From: Ignavibacteriota bacterium | GTDB taxonomy: Bacteria > Bacteroidota > Ignavibacteria > Ignavibacteriales > Melioribacteraceae | NCBI GenBank assembly: GCA_013112585.1 | Contig: JABFGH010000007.1 | Span: 62,001-126,000 of the forward strand | Direction of reading: 5' to 3' | Length of the DNA stretch: 64,000 nt | Shown: one piece after another, positions 1-49,929 of the stretch | Layout of the letters: every line of letters starts with the position of its first letter | How positions within the stretch are numbered: position 1 is the stretch's first letter | The notes under the pieces: generated by a model | What the model was told of the DNA's origin: nothing | Databases searched by the model: none | What the model saw: only the letters and a program-made list of their open reading frames with translations | Position numbers and translations under genes: made by a program

Positions 1-264
1 TTTATTAATTTTATTTGCCGCATAAAATTCATCTTGATGTTCCAGCAGTAAATCATCTTTACAATCGGAAGAAAAAACTAAGCTATTGATGGGAATTGCT
101 GAATGGCAGTGATTATCTAAATTAACATTTTCAAAATGAGTATTGTTTTCCTCGTAACACATTACCCATCCTTCAGCAAAAGGGTGCATGGCTGTTAAAT
201 GAATAATCATTCCGGCAAGCAGAAAAGTGCTGATGATTTTATATGTAAATTTATTTTTGTTCAA
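1..264 (-). CDS. Hypothetical secreted protein, 3' end cut by window edge
   Basis: An open frame runs from a TTG at 264 leftward through base 1 with no stop, so only the N-terminal ~88 residues are visible. An in-frame ATG at 210 is an alternative start. From the TTG the protein begins with a basic stretch (NKNKFTYK) and a hydrophobic segment (IISTFLLAGMIIHL), a plausible signal peptide or membrane anchor. The rest is acidic with scattered Cys and His residues (CYEENN, DNHCHS, SSDCKDD). I recognise no family. An in-frame stop lies just upstream at 295-297, which limits how far the start can extend. The function is unknown. Confidence 0.5.
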   Translation of the reverse strand, partial: MNKNKFTYKIISTFLLAGMIIHLTAMHPFAEGWVMCYEENNTHFENVNLDNHCHSAIPINSLVFSSDCKDDLLLEHQDEFYAANKINK

Positions 265-372
265 TAATAATTTATAAATTAAAAATTCTTCTGTCTAAAC
301 TTATTTGAAATGTTACTTTTATACAATAGTTAAATTTGTAGAAAATTTTGCATTCAAAAATTTCAAGTTCAA

Positions 373-8418: not shown

Positions 8419-8431
8419 TAAGGAGCAGTAA

Positions 8432-42039: not shown

Positions 42040-42194
42040 TTTCTAAATATTTTTTACTTAAATGTTAAAACTAAAATACAACTTTAATTCTTTTTGAGCC
42101 CAGCATTTACCTAAATTGTTGCTAATAGCATTTTAGAGATTACGAGTTTCATTTAAAAGGATTTTTTGTAAGGATAGATATTAAGGTATACTCG

Positions 42195-42267
42195 TGCATC
42201 CTGGGGGACTCGAACCCCCGACCTGCTGATTAAGAGTCAGATGCTCTACCAACTGAGCTAAGGATGC
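42195..42267 (-). tRNA. tRNA-Lys (CTT anticodon)
   Basis: A 73-base cloverleaf on the minus strand. The acceptor arms GCATCCT and AGGATGC pair perfectly, the D arm contains AGCTCAGTTGGTAGAGC, the anticodon loop is CTCTTAA (anticodon CTT) and the T arm contains GGGGGTTCGAGTCCCCC. The 3' CCA is not encoded. The 3' end points toward the sugar locus; the accessory island begins on its 5' side. Confidence 0.97.
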
Positions 42268-43068: not shown

Positions 43069-43533
43069 ATGAAAAATTTAAATAACGCTTTAATGATTGA
43101 ACAACTTGATAAAAAGCTTTCAAAATTTGCTTTAATTGAAAGTAATATCAAACCGGCTAAGGGATGGATTAATTCAATTCGTTCGGCTTTAAATATTTCA
43201 CTTGTTCAATTTGCCAGAATGCTCAACAAATCTTCACCTACTGTAAAAGAAATGGAGGAGCGTGAGGCAAATAACAATATTACCTTAAATAAACTTGCTG
43301 AAGCAGGTGAGGCATTGAATTTAAGATTGGTTTATGGGTTTGTCCCTAAAGATGGTACTCTTGAAATGATGCTTGAAAAACGTGCCTACAAAAAAGCTGA
43401 AGAAATAGTGATGCGGACCTCACATACTATGAAACTCGAAGATCAGGAAAACACTGAAGAGAGACTCAAGAAAGCTATAAAGGATAGAGCTGAAAAAATT
43501 AAAAATGAATTACCGAAATACTTATGGGACTAG
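43069..43533 (+). CDS. Mobile mystery protein A (HTH antitoxin-like)
   Basis: 154 residues, matching the TIGR02612-type family by eye. The central Xre-like helix-turn-helix is LVQFARMLNKSSPTVKEMEE near 45-64, followed by NITLNKLAEAGEALNLRLVYGFVP near 70-93 (split by the usual turn), which is the family's most conserved part. The C-terminal third is charged and helical. It overlaps the Fic-protein gene by 10 bp. Pairs of this kind are found on mobile elements across bacteria, and a regulator or antitoxin role for A toward B is widely assumed but not firmly shown. Confidence 0.88.
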   Translation: MKNLNNALMIEQLDKKLSKFALIESNIKPAKGWINSIRSALNISLVQFARMLNKSSPTVKEMEEREANNNITLNKLAEAGEALNLRLVYGFVPKDGTLEMMLEKRAYKKAEEIVMRTSHTMKLEDQENTEERLKKAIKDRAEKIKNELPKYLWD

Positions 43534-44120
43534 ACTTAGATTTTTCTGATGGTAAGACACCGCTGGATGAAGATGAAAAAGAGGGCTTACTTATTCCTAC
43601 GGTAACCAATCGTGGTGAACTTGATGAGTTTGAGCAGCTTGGTGTTGAAAAAACAAATGAGTGGCTGCTGACAAAAAAGTTCAGCATAGAAAAAATTTTA
43701 ACAGAAACTTTTGTTAGAGATATACACAGAAGAATGTTTTCGGATATTTGGAAATGGGCTGGAGAATTTAGAAAAACAGAAAAAAATATTGGTGTGGATC
43801 CGGTAATGATAGGCGTTGAATTAAGAAATCTTCTTGATGATTGTAAATATTGGATTGGAAATAAGGTATTTAATGAAGATGAAATCGCAATTCGATTAAG
43901 TCATAGAATGGTATTAATCCATCCATTCGCAAATGGTAATGGGAGGCATTCACGTCTTATGGCTGATGTGATTATTAATAAAGGTTTTGGCAAACCCTAC
44001 TTTACCTGGGGCAGTGTTAATTTAGTAAAAGAGGGTGAAGCCAGAATAAAATATTTAGAAGCCTTAAGAGCGGCAGATAGAAATGATTATAAGCATCTGA
44101 TAGAATTTGCACGCTTATAA
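43524..44120 (+). CDS. Mobile mystery protein B (Fic-domain protein)
   Basis: 198 residues. The Fic core is HPFANGNGRHSR at 133-144 with catalytic His133; the usual Asp/Glu before GNGR is Asn137, as in other members of this family. Upstream conserved segments are DGKTPLDEDEKEGL, TNRGELDEFEQLG, HRRMFSDIWKWAGEFR and TEKNIGVDP. Canonical Fic proteins transfer AMP or another nucleotide to target proteins; the Asn suggests altered metal coordination or activity. Overlaps the HTH gene by 10 bp, so the two are co-translated, as in a toxin-antitoxin module. Targets are unknown. Confidence 0.88.
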   Translation: MGLDLDFSDGKTPLDEDEKEGLLIPTVTNRGELDEFEQLGVEKTNEWLLTKKFSIEKILTETFVRDIHRRMFSDIWKWAGEFRKTEKNIGVDPVMIGVELRNLLDDCKYWIGNKVFNEDEIAIRLSHRMVLIHPFANGNGRHSRLMADVIINKGFGKPYFTWGSVNLVKEGEARIKYLEALRAADRNDYKHLIEFARL

Positions 44121-44470
44121 TTTAATCTTATCAAAAATTTATAGCATATAATAGTAGAGATAGGCGGGTAAGGGTACATTGCAAAAATAAACTTTCCTGT
44201 ATTTGAGTACAACATGACTTTTTAGGGTAAGTGTGAAATTGAATGTTTTCAAATTTATTTTTCATCTTTTCTTTAAGAACAAATCCTATTCAAATTGTTA
44301 TGTGGTCAATGAAAATATAAAAGACTATTGATCGCCCAACAATGAAAAGTCGTATTGGCTTAAATAGGCAAATATGCTTGGCATGATAATTCATAAATAT
44401 TTAATTCAGTAAGATTAAAATATGTTTGGATTAAATAAGAGCGGGTAGGGAGAGTTTCACTAATAAATCA
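44121..44470. other. Non-coding stretch in the island
   Basis: No supportable gene is seen on either strand. It contains two similar G-rich words (GCGGGTAAGG near 44164, GCGGGTAGGG near 44443) and a segment near 44336 (GTCGTATTGGCTTA) that loosely resembles the beginning of the structured repeats to the right; it may be a badly decayed further copy. Confidence 0.35.
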
Positions 44471-44597
44471 TTAACTAATATCTGAATCTGTCGCATACAC
44501 AGTGTAGACTGTCTTGTGGCTTTAATTAAAAAATATATTAAGAACAAATATCAGAATTTATAGTTCTTGATATTAAATTTTAAATTGATAATTTAAG
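44471..44597. repeat. Structured island repeat, copy A
   Basis: About 127 bp, starting TTAACTAATATCTGAA and ending near TTGATAATTTAA. It is roughly 75-80% identical to copy B by eye and shares 20 identical bases at 44543-44562. A hairpin is formed by AAGAAC and GTTCTT around the shared core; in copy B the arms are different but still complementary. It lies just upstream of the first UDG-like gene. Confidence 0.7.
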
Positions 44598-44668
44598 TGG
44601 CAATATTGCTATTAAATTATTACCATAATTTACTCACATTAATGCTTAGCATCAAAGGACGATCAAAT

Positions 44669-45427
44669 ATGAATGAGAAATTAGTTAGGCAGTGTCTTTT
44701 TAATTGGTTAGGATACGGAAACCTTCATGGTTCAATATGGTTTATTGGTACAGAAGAGGGAGGAGCAGAAATATGGAGACAAAAGACAAAGACAATTCAA
44801 GAAAGTTTGGAGATAAGAAAAAAATTTAAACTAAGTATGGATTTTATCAATGTTTGGGAAAAGCAATATAATATCCCAATGATAAAATTTAGAGGACCAA
44901 CTGTGTGGCGATATATTGCGGCATTCCTGTTATGTTTTGAAAAAGCGAAAAAAAATGAGCTAATTAAAGTTGAAAGAAATGATGTAGAAGAATTTTTATA
45001 CGAGTCAAAAAAATTAGGGAGGAAGGATTCAAATCATTTCCTTTGTGAATTATTTCCTTTGCCTAAAAAGAGTAAAAATAATATTGAACCATATTCAGAT
45101 TTTTGGGATTCAATAAAATCTTATCATAGTGAATTATTATCGCAAAGAATAAATCTTATAAAAGAGGCGCTAAACGAAAATGTAAAAGTGTTAATTTCAT
45201 ATGAAAAAATTCTAACAGAATATTTAGTTGAGAAATTTCATGCTGAATTAGAATATACATGGGAATTCAAAAAACAAAAATATAAATCATATAGAATAAA
45301 GTTTGAGAAGAAATTAGAGATAGCATTGCTTTCAACACCATTTTTTGGAAATGGAAGAATTAGTTATCAAGGAGTAGAAGAAGCAGTAAAGAAATTAATT
45401 GAAAATAAATTGTTAACTACAATCTGA
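44669..45427 (+). CDS. Uracil-DNA glycosylase-superfamily-like protein (island, first)
   Basis: 252 residues from the ATG at 44669, which has AAAGGAC 9 bp upstream; the frame is open to 44597 but that part overlaps the repeat. Features suggesting the UDG fold are an early strand-loop WFIGTEEGGAE near 24-34 (position of the UDG water-activating loop), NHFLCELFPLP near 113-123, KVLISYEK, and LLSTPFFGNGRISYQG near 222-237, where other families have the HPS loop. It lacks the canonical motifs, so glycosylase activity is uncertain. Its stop codon lies inside the start of repeat copy B. I know no named family for it. Confidence 0.6.
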   Translation: MNEKLVRQCLFNWLGYGNLHGSIWFIGTEEGGAEIWRQKTKTIQESLEIRKKFKLSMDFINVWEKQYNIPMIKFRGPTVWRYIAAFLLCFEKAKKNELIKVERNDVEEFLYESKKLGRKDSNHFLCELFPLPKKSKNNIEPYSDFWDSIKSYHSELLSQRINLIKEALNENVKVLISYEKILTEYLVEKFHAELEYTWEFKKQKYKSYRIKFEKKLEIALLSTPFFGNGRISYQGVEEAVKKLIENKLLTTI

Positions 45428-45540
45428 AACTGTCGTATTGAGAGTGTAGGCTTACTTGGGCTTGATTTGAAAAAATATATAAATAACAAATATCAGAATT
45501 TATATTTGTTGACATTAAATTTTAGAATGATAAGTTAAAA
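45413..45540. repeat. Structured island repeat, copy B
   Basis: About 128 bp starting TTAACTACAATCTGAA, so its first 15 bases encode the last residues and stop of the UDG-like gene. An internal hairpin has arms AACAAATA (45485-45492) and TATTTGTT around a 10-base loop. The outer ends TTAACT and AAGTTAA are also complementary. Compared with copy A the hairpin arms change together, which points to a selected structure. Confidence 0.7.
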
Positions 45541-46710: not shown

Positions 46711-46880
46711 GTAGAACTGTCGCAGCGAGATTGAACGTTTTGTTATCAACAAGTAACTACAACAGTCCTATGGAAAGCGTGTACAATCTTTGGCTTGATT
46801 TTATTGATTATAAATAGATGCAACATCAGAGTTTATATTGTTTGATAATTTTGAATAATAGTTTTAGATTAAGTTATTGT
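46711..46880. repeat. Structured island repeat, copy C (diverged, longer)
   Basis: It begins GTAGAACTGTCGCAG like the others (CTGTCG) and resumes the match at GTGTACAATCTTTGGCTTGATTTT, then ACATCAGAGTTTATATTGTT and a TTTTAGATTAAGTTA end. About 45 extra bases sit between the first two blocks. It is clearly more diverged than A and B. It precedes the GIY-YIG operon by ~140 bp. Confidence 0.55.
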
Positions 46881-47017: not shown

Positions 47018-47920
47018 ATGGCAAAACCATACACAATAAGATTGTTTGTTCCTGATGGACTCCCGAATACATTTAAAATAATCGATAAGATGAATTGGAC
47101 TGGAATTGGCTTAGAGATTTCCCGAGATACCTGGAAACAACATAGAAAGAGACATGAACTTGACCAGGCTGGTGTATATATTCTCATCGGATATCAAGAC
47201 GATAGTGACCTTCCTACTCTTTACATTGGTCAAGGAGATGGTGTTAGAAGTCGAATAGACTCCCATGAAAAAAATAAAGATTTTTGGGATAAGGTATTAA
47301 TTTTTGTTTCCAGTAACGGTGGTTTAAATAGAGCACATATTACTTGGCTGGAGTGGGCTTTAATTGAAAAGGCAAAAAGTATTGGAAGATCTTTACTAGA
47401 TAATAACGCATCACCAACTGAACCAAAACTTACTGAATCAGAAAAAGCAGACACCCAAGAATTTCTAAATGAAATCCTCAGTGTTTTACCTTTGGTTGAA
47501 GTGAAAGTTTTTGAAAAAGGTAAAAAGATAAAAGTTTCGGGAAAATCGGTATCGGCAAACAAAAAGATTGGAGTCAAGGATACTATTATTGTTCCTGCTC
47601 AAGAGGACGGATTCAAAAATGTATTTATTGGCCAAAACAGTTGGTATGCTATACGAATTGGTGGCGGTAAATTGAAGGAAATAAAATATATAGCAGCATA
47701 CCAAACAGCCCCAATTTCAGCGGTAACACATTATGCAGAAGTTGAAACCATTGAACCATATGGTGATGGAGGGAAATACAAATTAAATTTTGTGAAGCAT
47801 GCAAAACCGATTGGTCCAATTAAATTTAAGGGTGGTAAAAAAGGGACAATGCAAAGCCCTAGATATACAACATATGAAAAATTGTCATCGGCAAAAACAT
47901 TTTCAAATTTGTTTGATTAA
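47018..47920 (+). CDS. GIY-YIG nuclease-domain protein with C-terminal PUA/EVE-like region
   Basis: 300 residues. The GIY-YIG fold is at ~50-130: GVYILIG at 52-58, TLYIGQG at 67-73, Arg77/Arg79, His83 and a Glu in WLEWALIEKA near 110-119, so the catalytic set looks intact. The C-terminal ~130 residues (TIIVPAQEDGFKNVFIG, NSWYAIRIGGGKLKEIKYIA, APISAVTHYAEVETIEPY) resemble small nucleic-acid-binding beta domains of the ASCH/EVE (PUA-like) type; this is inference. First gene of a tight three-gene operon with a PD-(D/E)XK nuclease and a UDG-like protein. Likely acts on DNA, perhaps modified DNA. Confidence 0.72.
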   Translation: MAKPYTIRLFVPDGLPNTFKIIDKMNWTGIGLEISRDTWKQHRKRHELDQAGVYILIGYQDDSDLPTLYIGQGDGVRSRIDSHEKNKDFWDKVLIFVSSNGGLNRAHITWLEWALIEKAKSIGRSLLDNNASPTEPKLTESEKADTQEFLNEILSVLPLVEVKVFEKGKKIKVSGKSVSANKKIGVKDTIIVPAQEDGFKNVFIGQNSWYAIRIGGGKLKEIKYIAAYQTAPISAVTHYAEVETIEPYGDGGKYKLNFVKHAKPIGPIKFKGGKKGTMQSPRYTTYEKLSSAKTFSNLFD

Positions 47921-47942
47921 TTCCAATTAGGAAACATTAAGT

Positions 47943-49187
47943 ATGTCCGATTTTCACGACAATATATTTTACTTTTATAGAGGCGCAAACCTCAAAGACA
48001 ATCAGAGAGAAAGGCAACTTGAAGACAACACAACAAAAGCACTCATAAATACACTTGAACACTGTGAAAAATCCGTTGCTAACAAATTTTTAAAATGGCT
48101 GGGAATTGTATCAGAAGGACAATCGTTTTATCAATTGCAACGCAAGAGTATTGGTAAGGCAAGAATAGACTCTAAACCACAAAAACTTCTTTTAGGTATT
48201 ACACCTAACAATAAGCATAATTCATTAACGAAATTAGCCCCAATCAAAGATGGATATAGTCGACCTGATGCATGGATTTATGGTAAAAACCATTTGGTAC
48301 TTATTGAAAGTAAAGTGGCTGGGAGTCTAGATAAAGATCAGATGGGGAGGCACTTACAAACACTACAATCTGATCATAATGTAAGAGTTGACTTTAAAAT
48401 AAAAACCTGGTCAGACATACATATGTTTTTTACAAAGTTAATAAACACAACAATTGAAAAAGATAAATGGTTAATTAAACAATTTGTTCAATATTTGGAG
48501 AGAATAAATATGTCAAAGTTTACAGGATTTAATACTGAATTTTTCGATTATTTTATTTCCCATGACGATGATGATGTTCGACGATGGGTACTAAACACAA
48601 TGCAAGCATTTGCGGAAATAGTTCAACCTAAGTTATATAAAATTGACACGTTTTATGATGAATTCGATATTGGAAGACTTGAATATAAGCACAAATATAC
48701 GTGGGCTGGATTTGGTCCAAAAAATAAGGAATATAGACAATATGCCCATATTACAATTGCGGCTGGATTAGAAGGTTTAGAAATTTTATTAAACGTTGAG
48801 CTAAAGTCAGCAACGGATAAATTGAGGGAAAAGATTGTTAAAAGTCCAAACAGTTTTAAAGATTATCTATTAAACTTAAATATAGGTGATGAAACATTTA
48901 TACAGATTGAGGAAAGAAAACAAAAGCAAGCAATGGTTTATGATTATAATAGAATTTCAAGAATTGATTTGTATGCTTTTAAAAATAAGATTACTGAAAT
49001 AGAAAGTATGAATTACCTTACATCACTTATTCAAAAAATTGAATTGCCATATTTTTCAATAAGAACGATTATTGACAGAGATTTGGTTTGTAAACTATCT
49101 CAAAAAGACCAAGGTGCAACATTGATTGAAAATGTTACGAATATTTGTCGAAAATATAATGCAATTATAAAATTCATAAATGGCTAA
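47943..49187 (+). CDS. PD-(D/E)XK nuclease-family protein
   Basis: 414 residues, cytosolic. The catalytic core is Asp109 (SRPDAWIYG), Glu122-x-Lys124 (LIESKVAG) and Gln133, preceded by a helix with Arg/Glu and Thr (RQLEDNTTKALINTLE at 25-40) usual in this nuclease superfamily. The ~270 residues after the core are of unknown fold (YFISHDDDDVRRWVLNTMQA, LEYKHKYTWAGFGP). It begins 22 bp after the GIY-YIG gene and ends 16 bp before the UDG-like gene. It looks like the main DNA-cutting component of the putative defence operon; substrate preference is unknown. Confidence 0.75.
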   Translation: MSDFHDNIFYFYRGANLKDNQRERQLEDNTTKALINTLEHCEKSVANKFLKWLGIVSEGQSFYQLQRKSIGKARIDSKPQKLLLGITPNNKHNSLTKLAPIKDGYSRPDAWIYGKNHLVLIESKVAGSLDKDQMGRHLQTLQSDHNVRVDFKIKTWSDIHMFFTKLINTTIEKDKWLIKQFVQYLERINMSKFTGFNTEFFDYFISHDDDDVRRWVLNTMQAFAEIVQPKLYKIDTFYDEFDIGRLEYKHKYTWAGFGPKNKEYRQYAHITIAAGLEGLEILLNVELKSATDKLREKIVKSPNSFKDYLLNLNIGDETFIQIEERKQKQAMVYDYNRISRIDLYAFKNKITEIESMNYLTSLIQKIELPYFSIRTIIDRDLVCKLSQKDQGATLIENVTNICRKYNAIIKFING

Positions 49188-49203
49188 ATAGGATATCAAT
49201 ATT

Positions 49204-49929
49204 ATGCACAAAGACATTTTAGCATTCCAAAAAGATTGTTTCCAAAACTACATTCCTACCATTCAAAAAGAACTACAAGACTTTCCTAAAAAATATGTTT
49301 ACCCAGACGGCAATCCAATTAGGCCAGTAGTTCCTGTTCAAACAACTAAAAATTCAATCATATTAATTGGTGCCTTCCCATCAGCAAGATTTGAAAGAAG
49401 AGGAAAGTATTTAATTCCAGTTGCTGATAACCTATCCCCATTTGGAGAAGAAAAATATTTTGATGGGCGGGAAACAAGGATTCAAGCATCAAGGGAAAGT
49501 TTAAACAAAAATTATTTCCCTCAATTGAATATCAACCCTGAAAAAATTTGGATAACTGATTTAGTAAAGATTTATCTATACCCAGAAAAACATATTAAAA
49601 ATTGTAAGGAAGTAAATCCTAAGATAAAATATGTTAACACGCATACGATGTTTAAGAAAATTGCACAGGCAAGCAAAGAGTGGGTTGAACAAGAGATTAA
49701 AATTTGTAATCCAAAACTAATTATTACACTTGGAGAAATTCCTGCCAGAGTTATAGTTTTAGATAATAAAACACCAAATAAAAAATTACTTGATGGTTCG
49801 ATAAATACAATTAAGTTAGATAAGGAATATAAGATAGCACACTTGGCTCATCCTGAAATCAGAAGAAGAAATAAGGAGTGGGATAGGTACACAAAAATAA
49901 TGATTAAAAAACTATCAAGAGAAATATAA
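49204..49929 (+). CDS. Uracil-DNA glycosylase-superfamily-like protein (island, second)
   Basis: 241 residues. UDG-fold landmarks are IILIGAFPSARF at 52-63 (motif 1 position), SPFGEEKYFDG at 78-88, IWITDLVKIYLYP near 121-133, CNPKLIITLGEIPARVI near 168-184 (core strand of family 4/5 enzymes) and HLAHPEIRRRNKEW near 219-232 (HP loop of motif 2). The motif 1 catalytic acid or asparagine is not obvious, so the activity may be changed. It is the third gene of the nuclease operon and is only distantly similar to the UDG-like protein at 44669. Confidence 0.7.
   Translation: MHKDILAFQKDCFQNYIPTIQKELQDFPKKYVYPDGNPIRPVVPVQTTKNSIILIGAFPSARFERRGKYLIPVADNLSPFGEEKYFDGRETRIQASRESLNKNYFPQLNINPEKIWITDLVKIYLYPEKHIKNCKEVNPKIKYVNTHTMFKKIAQASKEWVEQEIKICNPKLIITLGEIPARVIVLDNKTPNKKLLDGSINTIKLDKEYKIAHLAHPEIRRRNKEWDRYTKIMIKKLSREI

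Follow-up and report, generated by a model that had tools for sequence, protein, structure and literature searches.

A nuclease-like gene paired with a divergent uracil-DNA glycosylase-like gene at a candidate defence locus of an Ignavibacteriota bacterium

The locus and its three genes

The stretch of DNA analysed here, referred to throughout as the window, comprises 64,000 nucleotides (nt) of contig JABFGH010000007.1 (positions 62,001 to 126,000) from assembly GCA_013112585.1 of an Ignavibacteriota bacterium. It carries three genes, termed gene 1, gene 2 and gene 3, which lie head to tail and encode, respectively, a GIY-YIG nuclease-like protein, a candidate PD-(D/E)XK nuclease and a protein resembling uracil-DNA glycosylases (UDGs) (Table 1). 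They are separated by 22 nt (genes 1 and 2) and 16 nt (genes 2 and 3), each ATG has an in-frame stop a short distance before it, and alternative starts are absent. A preliminary description of this DNA had treated the three as a single operon encoding a candidate undescribed defence system, and on re-reading of the open reading frames (ORFs) the coordinates, spacing and residues that it gave were all correct. The recurring unit is, however, the nuclease gene together with the UDG-like gene, not the trio, and the interest of the locus lies in this pairing and in the altered pocket of the gene 3 product.

Table 1. Features of the locus and its surroundings (window coordinates, or residues for the domains of gene 1)
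Feature	Position	Strand	Remarks
Gene 1	47018..47920	+	300 aa; intact ORF, ATG start
Gene 2	47943..49187	+	414 aa; intact ORF, ATG start
Gene 3	49204..49929	+	241 aa; intact ORF, ATG start
Gene 1, GIY-YIG nuclease domain	residues ~1-177		PDC-S14 type
Gene 1, C-terminal domain	residues ~187-299		fused elsewhere to nuclease-like proteins
tRNA-Lys (CTT)	42194..42267	-	left of cargo region
Mobile mystery protein A (helix-turn-helix) and B (Fic domain)	43069..44120	+	TIGR02612, TIGR02613
Direct repeat, copy 1	44462..44596	+	135 nt
Direct repeat, copy 2	45404..45538	+	79% identical to copy 1
Direct repeat, copy 3 (diverged)	~46745..46870	+	directly 5' of gene 1; local alignment
Kef-type transporter gene	50274		right limit of cargo; name read from sequence

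A classical restriction-modification (R-M) system has a methyltransferase beside its nuclease. None was found among the neighbouring ORFs scanned with Pfam, NCBIfam and PADLOC, as the preliminary description had also noted.

Gene 2 carries P108 D109 ... E122 x K124, followed by Q133, so that the D109/E122/K124 core previously proposed for it is present. A protein encoded on a Cytobacillus plasmid (locus L035; other comparison loci are likewise given L numbers) was the sole, distant relative found (28% identity) and keeps P108, D109, E122, K124, Q133 and H137. Because the motif is conserved in this relative, the comparison supports gene 2 as a rare candidate nuclease of the PD-(D/E)XK type. There is no profile match to gene 2 in Pfam, NCBIfam or PADLOC, its sequence used by itself against the PDB returned nothing significant, and the gene was found in no other genome of the 247 searched; in PHROGs it gives one weak match, to a family of unknown function (expectation value, E, 0.0046).

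Gene 3 and the neighbours of its relatives

Gene 3 matches the Pfam UDG family above its cut-off (E 6.5e-8), and an AlphaFold2 model built from five family members (predicted local distance difference test, pLDDT, 75.7; predicted template modelling score, pTM, 0.79) is closest to the family-4 UDG 4zbx (Z 15.5, root-mean-square deviation 3.3 A, 184 residues). The score against UdgX is Z 14.5, and those against SMUG, MUG and TDG are clearly lower, at about 10-11. The UDG-like call of the preliminary description is therefore upheld by a predicted UDG alpha/beta fold as well as by the Pfam match, and sequence and model together place gene 3 in the UDG superfamily, as a rare subfamily. Its motifs are motif A (G56AFPSARF63), an aromatic F80, W116-I-T-D119-L-V-K122 and motif B (H216-P217), with G56, P59, H216 and P217 invariant in five full-length family members.

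The likeness to family-4 UDGs and UdgX extends from the fold to the motif order (G-x-x-P, F, [N/D]-x-[VI]-K, HP), whereas the loop after motif A is longer in gene 3 and the key residues differ. Alignment with canonical family-4 references from the same phylum (L033, L034) shows that the motif order is kept, but that GEAPG has become GAFPS, YHPAA has become AHPEI or AHPGI and the Asn of A-N-I-L-K has become the Asp of T-D-L-V-K (D119). Two family-4 hallmarks are thus missing from gene 3, with A57 in place of the catalytic Glu and D119 in place of the Asn that selects uracil. The Asn/Asp register is given independently by a PDB profile alignment, and the pocket Asp is found in all eight gene 3 family members aligned.

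The pocket substitution has precedents. Human UNG in which Asn204 is changed to Asp (N204D) excises cytosine (PMC11162499), and Brig3, a phage-defence glycosylase acting on 5-hydroxymethylcytosine (5hmC), has a pocket Asp, D127, at the 5hmC site (PMC13160076), which by analogy recalls D119 of gene 3. From the Asn-to-Asp pocket and these two precedents, our best guess is that gene 3 would act on a cytosine-type modified base. Brig1 and Brig3, DNA glycosylases that excise bases in phage defence (PMC11078745, PMC13160076), are also the nearest functional precedents for gene 3; by description they too are UDG-superfamily proteins encoded in small operons at defence loci. The closest solved structure to Brig1, as to the model of gene 3, is a Sulfolobus tokodaii UDG (PMC11078745).

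The subfamily is rare: at a strict cut-off it has members in 7 of the 395 genomes searched within the phylum, and at a loose one UDG-like genes appear in 8 of 247 genomes, weak matches to ordinary UDGs included. Further loci were found in one member of the Flavobacteriaceae and one 'Desulfurellaceae' metagenome-assembled genome (L038), around which a search of 297 further genomes gave no additional relative of gene 3. The UDG-like gene of L038 contains an in-frame TAA (8421-8423), either recent decay or an assembly error.

The gene upstream of the UDG-like gene can be read at eight loci (the window, L037, L038, L039, L040, L041, L042 and L052), and at six of them it is a nuclease or nuclease-like gene, of five unrelated types in all. 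The clearest arrangement is that of L041, a type II R-M system of the XhoI/PaeR7I kind in which an N6/N4 methylase is followed by the XhoI nuclease (Pfam E 5e-79) and, directly behind it, the UDG-like gene; L039 is a decayed version of the same arrangement. The window differs from this system in lacking the methylase and in having a gene 2 that is not XhoI-like. At L038 the upstream gene encodes a PDDEXK_5 protein (E 2e-6), at L040 a 265-residue protein with an SxD...EFK motif, in a setting flanked by R-M-like and McrB/McrC-like genes, and at L042 a 403-residue protein with a GD...EVK motif. The neighbour at L037 is a TrlF-family AAA-like ATPase with a distant match to the anti-phage protein Ppl. 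Across the loci examined, tblastn linked none of these proteins (gene 2, the XhoI nuclease and the neighbours at L040 and L042) to another. Because the partner nucleases are mutually unrelated, the UDG-like gene would appear to accompany nucleases in general.

Gene 1 and the question of a three-gene system

The GIY-YIG assignment made earlier for gene 1 is borne out by a complete set of motif residues (G52-V-Y54, Y69-I-G71, R79, E112, N129), conserved across its relatives, and by PADLOC, in which residues 1-179 match the candidate family PDC-S14 (five models, best E 5e-56). The Pfam GIY-YIG matches are weak and come from other members of the family. Genes of the PDC-S14 type occur in 24 of 247 genomes, a few of them matching the tail domain alone. 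Gene 1 resembles PDC-S14 over its N-terminal 179 residues but differs from it thereafter, because typical relatives end in DUF4357 (three relatives match, E 6e-24), which gives no match in gene 1 of the window. In its place is a tail of about 110 residues with 46-56% identity to the C-termini of other proteins from the same phylum.

The tail is common to L006, L009, L010, L012 and L016 and to the plasmids L043 and L044. The same-phylum proteins that bear it have a different N-terminus, nuclease-like by eye, and some adjoin DNA methylases or additional nuclease-like genes. Since the same tail sits on different N-termini and replaces DUF4357, comparison of the sequences identifies it as a swappable module. 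It has no Pfam match even at E 10, its one match in a PDB sequence search (E 0.011) is to a designed helix bundle and looks like chance, and a single-sequence structure model of it is poor (pLDDT 36). These results lend no support to the PUA/EVE-like character that the preliminary description gave to this region, nor do they speak against it. A GIY-YIG protein with this tail (56-60% identity) stands alone on a Tolypothrix plasmid (L043), which also bears a second, partial copy of the tail (1125-1424) beside an annotated restriction endonuclease gene. On a Magnetococcus plasmid (L044 2137-3943), a relative of gene 1 seems to be split by an IS630-family element into N- and C-terminal pieces. Two genomes of one genus (L009 and L012) share a gene order in which a nuclease-like protein with the tail domain precedes another nuclease-like ORF and a third, conserved ORF of at least 233 residues, possibly a separate defence cassette.

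A known enzyme of similar build is CMoRE (PD-T4-3), a GIY-YIG type IV enzyme for DNA containing 5hmC or 5ghmC (the glucosylated form), which like gene 1 is a single short protein with an N-terminal GIY-YIG nuclease and a C-terminal domain (PMC12923530). Gene 1 lacks the third Tyr of the GIYxY motif, reading G52-V-Y54-I-L56 (motif definition in PMC12923530), and the PD-T4-3 model is not among its PADLOC matches. With L56 at the position of the third Tyr, the defining motif excludes gene 1 from CMoRE.

Relatives of gene 1 and relatives of gene 3 co-occur in the window's own genome only (247 and 395 genomes searched, respectively), and no locus examined besides the window holds both. This overlap in one genome, together with the solitary gene 1 relative on the Tolypothrix plasmid, leads us to reject the trio as a conserved three-gene system for the genomes searched. 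The single three-gene operon of the preliminary description accordingly does not stand as a system, and when co-occurrence was checked in the genomes searched, the trio did not recur but pairs of the kind formed by genes 2 and 3 did. Because the trio is found in no other genome searched, co-transcription of gene 1 with genes 2 and 3 may be local. A search of viral contigs gave one distant GIY-YIG relative and none for gene 2, gene 3 or the gene 1 tail.

Candidate function and island setting

The reading that we favour, with a probability of about 0.5, is that the locus is a mobile anti-phage cassette composed of a gene 1 nuclease and a gene 2-gene 3 nuclease-glycosylase pair. From the motifs, the predicted fold, the recurring pairing and the island setting we infer activities, substrate, cooperation and a role in defence. 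Gene 1 would probably be a self-contained GIY-YIG nuclease, independent of genes 2 and 3, with a C-terminal domain that recognises the target, as in modification-dependent (type IV-like) enzymes. The PD-(D/E)XK protein of gene 2 would restrict incoming DNA, and gene 3 would act on phage DNA that resists restriction, excising a modified base most likely derived from cytosine, with the resulting abasic sites leading to a replication block or breaks. Restriction through base excision is known from PabI (PMC10273834). The membership of gene 1 in a defence-candidate family speaks for this reading, as do the tRNA-Lys gene, repeats and mobile mystery genes, which are marks of an island. Of the immunity against modified bases proposed in the preliminary description, the idea itself thus remains the best supported, and its three-gene form does not.

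Several observations weigh against the cassette. The trio was seen once, with no other searched genome or locus holding all three genes, and relatives of gene 3 were not found in the plasmids or phages searched. Short motifs underlie the nuclease assignments of gene 2 and of the neighbours at L040 and L042; about 10% of control ORFs contain a comparable motif, and a strict version of the pattern failed to match the L040 ORF. At L037 the gap is about 300 nt and the upstream gene encodes an ATPase, at L052 the UDG-like gene is solitary, and at L036 the contig ends so that the upstream gene is unreadable. Gene 3 itself, with Ala where family-4 enzymes have their catalytic Glu, could be a binder and not an enzyme.

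A broader proposal, which we advance tentatively, is that a glycosylase of the UDG superfamily, its pocket suited to a cytosine-type base, acts as an unrecognised plug-in, joining unrelated restriction nucleases and removing the modified bases by which phages evade them, so that under the combined action of both enzymes no DNA state would be safe for the phage. Already on the favoured reading the glycosylase would be a general add-on, closing the loophole of base modification for any nuclease with which it is paired. If this is true, base-excision immunity would also be a modular accessory to restriction enzymes, beyond the stand-alone Brig1 and Brig3, and would explain how restriction can keep its value against phages whose DNA is modified. 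The proposal makes the concrete prediction that the Asp pocket selects a cytosine-type base, and it could yield new glycosylases for the detection of modified cytosines.

Among the alternatives, we see an appreciable chance, though one well short of even, that genes 1 to 3 are independent defence genes co-located in an island, namely a stand-alone GIY-YIG nuclease and a nuclease-UDG pair that share no mechanism. Consistent with this, among the genomes searched relatives of gene 1 were found together with those of gene 3 only in the window's genome, and the Tolypothrix protein with the same tail is solitary; in addition, the nearest relative of gene 2, on the Cytobacillus plasmid, has no annotated UDG neighbour and no gene 3 relative was found there. 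The common strand and narrow gaps in the window nevertheless suggest co-transcription.

It is unlikely that gene 3 is instead a dead subunit that binds a base or abasic site in the manner of UdgX and so targets or activates its nuclease partner. Such a role would fit the Ala at the motif-A Glu, the presence of UdgX among the closest folds, the DNA-crosslinked forms of UdgX in the PDB and the fact that the UDG-like protein always has a gene of its own, in most cases next to that of a nuclease. However, family-5 UDGs are active although they lack the motif-A acid, and a specific contact between gene 3 and the nuclease is less likely because the partner nucleases are unrelated.

Still more doubtful is a role for gene 3 not as attacker but as a repair enzyme that guards the host from damage caused by a restriction or modification partner. 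Vsr plays such a protective repair role for Dcm, and at L041 the UDG-like gene does stand behind a complete R-M system with a methylase. However, in the window, at L040 and at L042 the adjacent gene is not a methylase, and gene 3 has lost the uracil-selecting Asn of the pocket. Least likely of all is that the genes serve ordinary DNA repair or element maintenance and play no part in immunity. This would accord with the UDG fold being mostly a repair fold and with the solitary copy at L052, but the rare, patchy distribution and the restriction neighbours are atypical of core repair.

The cargo between the tRNA-Lys gene and the Kef-type gene has the look of a mobile island whose cassettes are marked by repeats. 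A tRNA gene is a usual landmark of an island; a Plastid-ycf2 match in Rfam at this gene lies antisense to the tRNA and under the cut-off. The mobile mystery genes were recognised by TIGR02612 (E 1.3e-35, just under the cut-off) and TIGR02613 (E 2.5e-73). Of the island context previously described, these genes and the direct repeats were confirmed, and the decayed gene was not identified. The third repeat copy gives a local alignment score of 84, against at most 50 in shuffled sequence, and the repeat has short partial matches only elsewhere in the genome; it is possibly a cassette or insertion-site element. No RNA family of Rfam lies at the repeats, and their interpretation as integron attC sites was dropped, as no matching core motif was seen by eye. 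All three copies have a hairpin-like core with the loop TCAGA. Repeat copies 1 and 2 bracket an ORF of 276 residues on the plus strand (44597-45427), unassigned to a family, whose motifs (IWFIGTEEGG...) look UDG-like by eye and which is weakly similar (23%, E 9e-4) to an ORF at L040 14725-15498, part of a defence island in which a gene 3 relative is likewise found.
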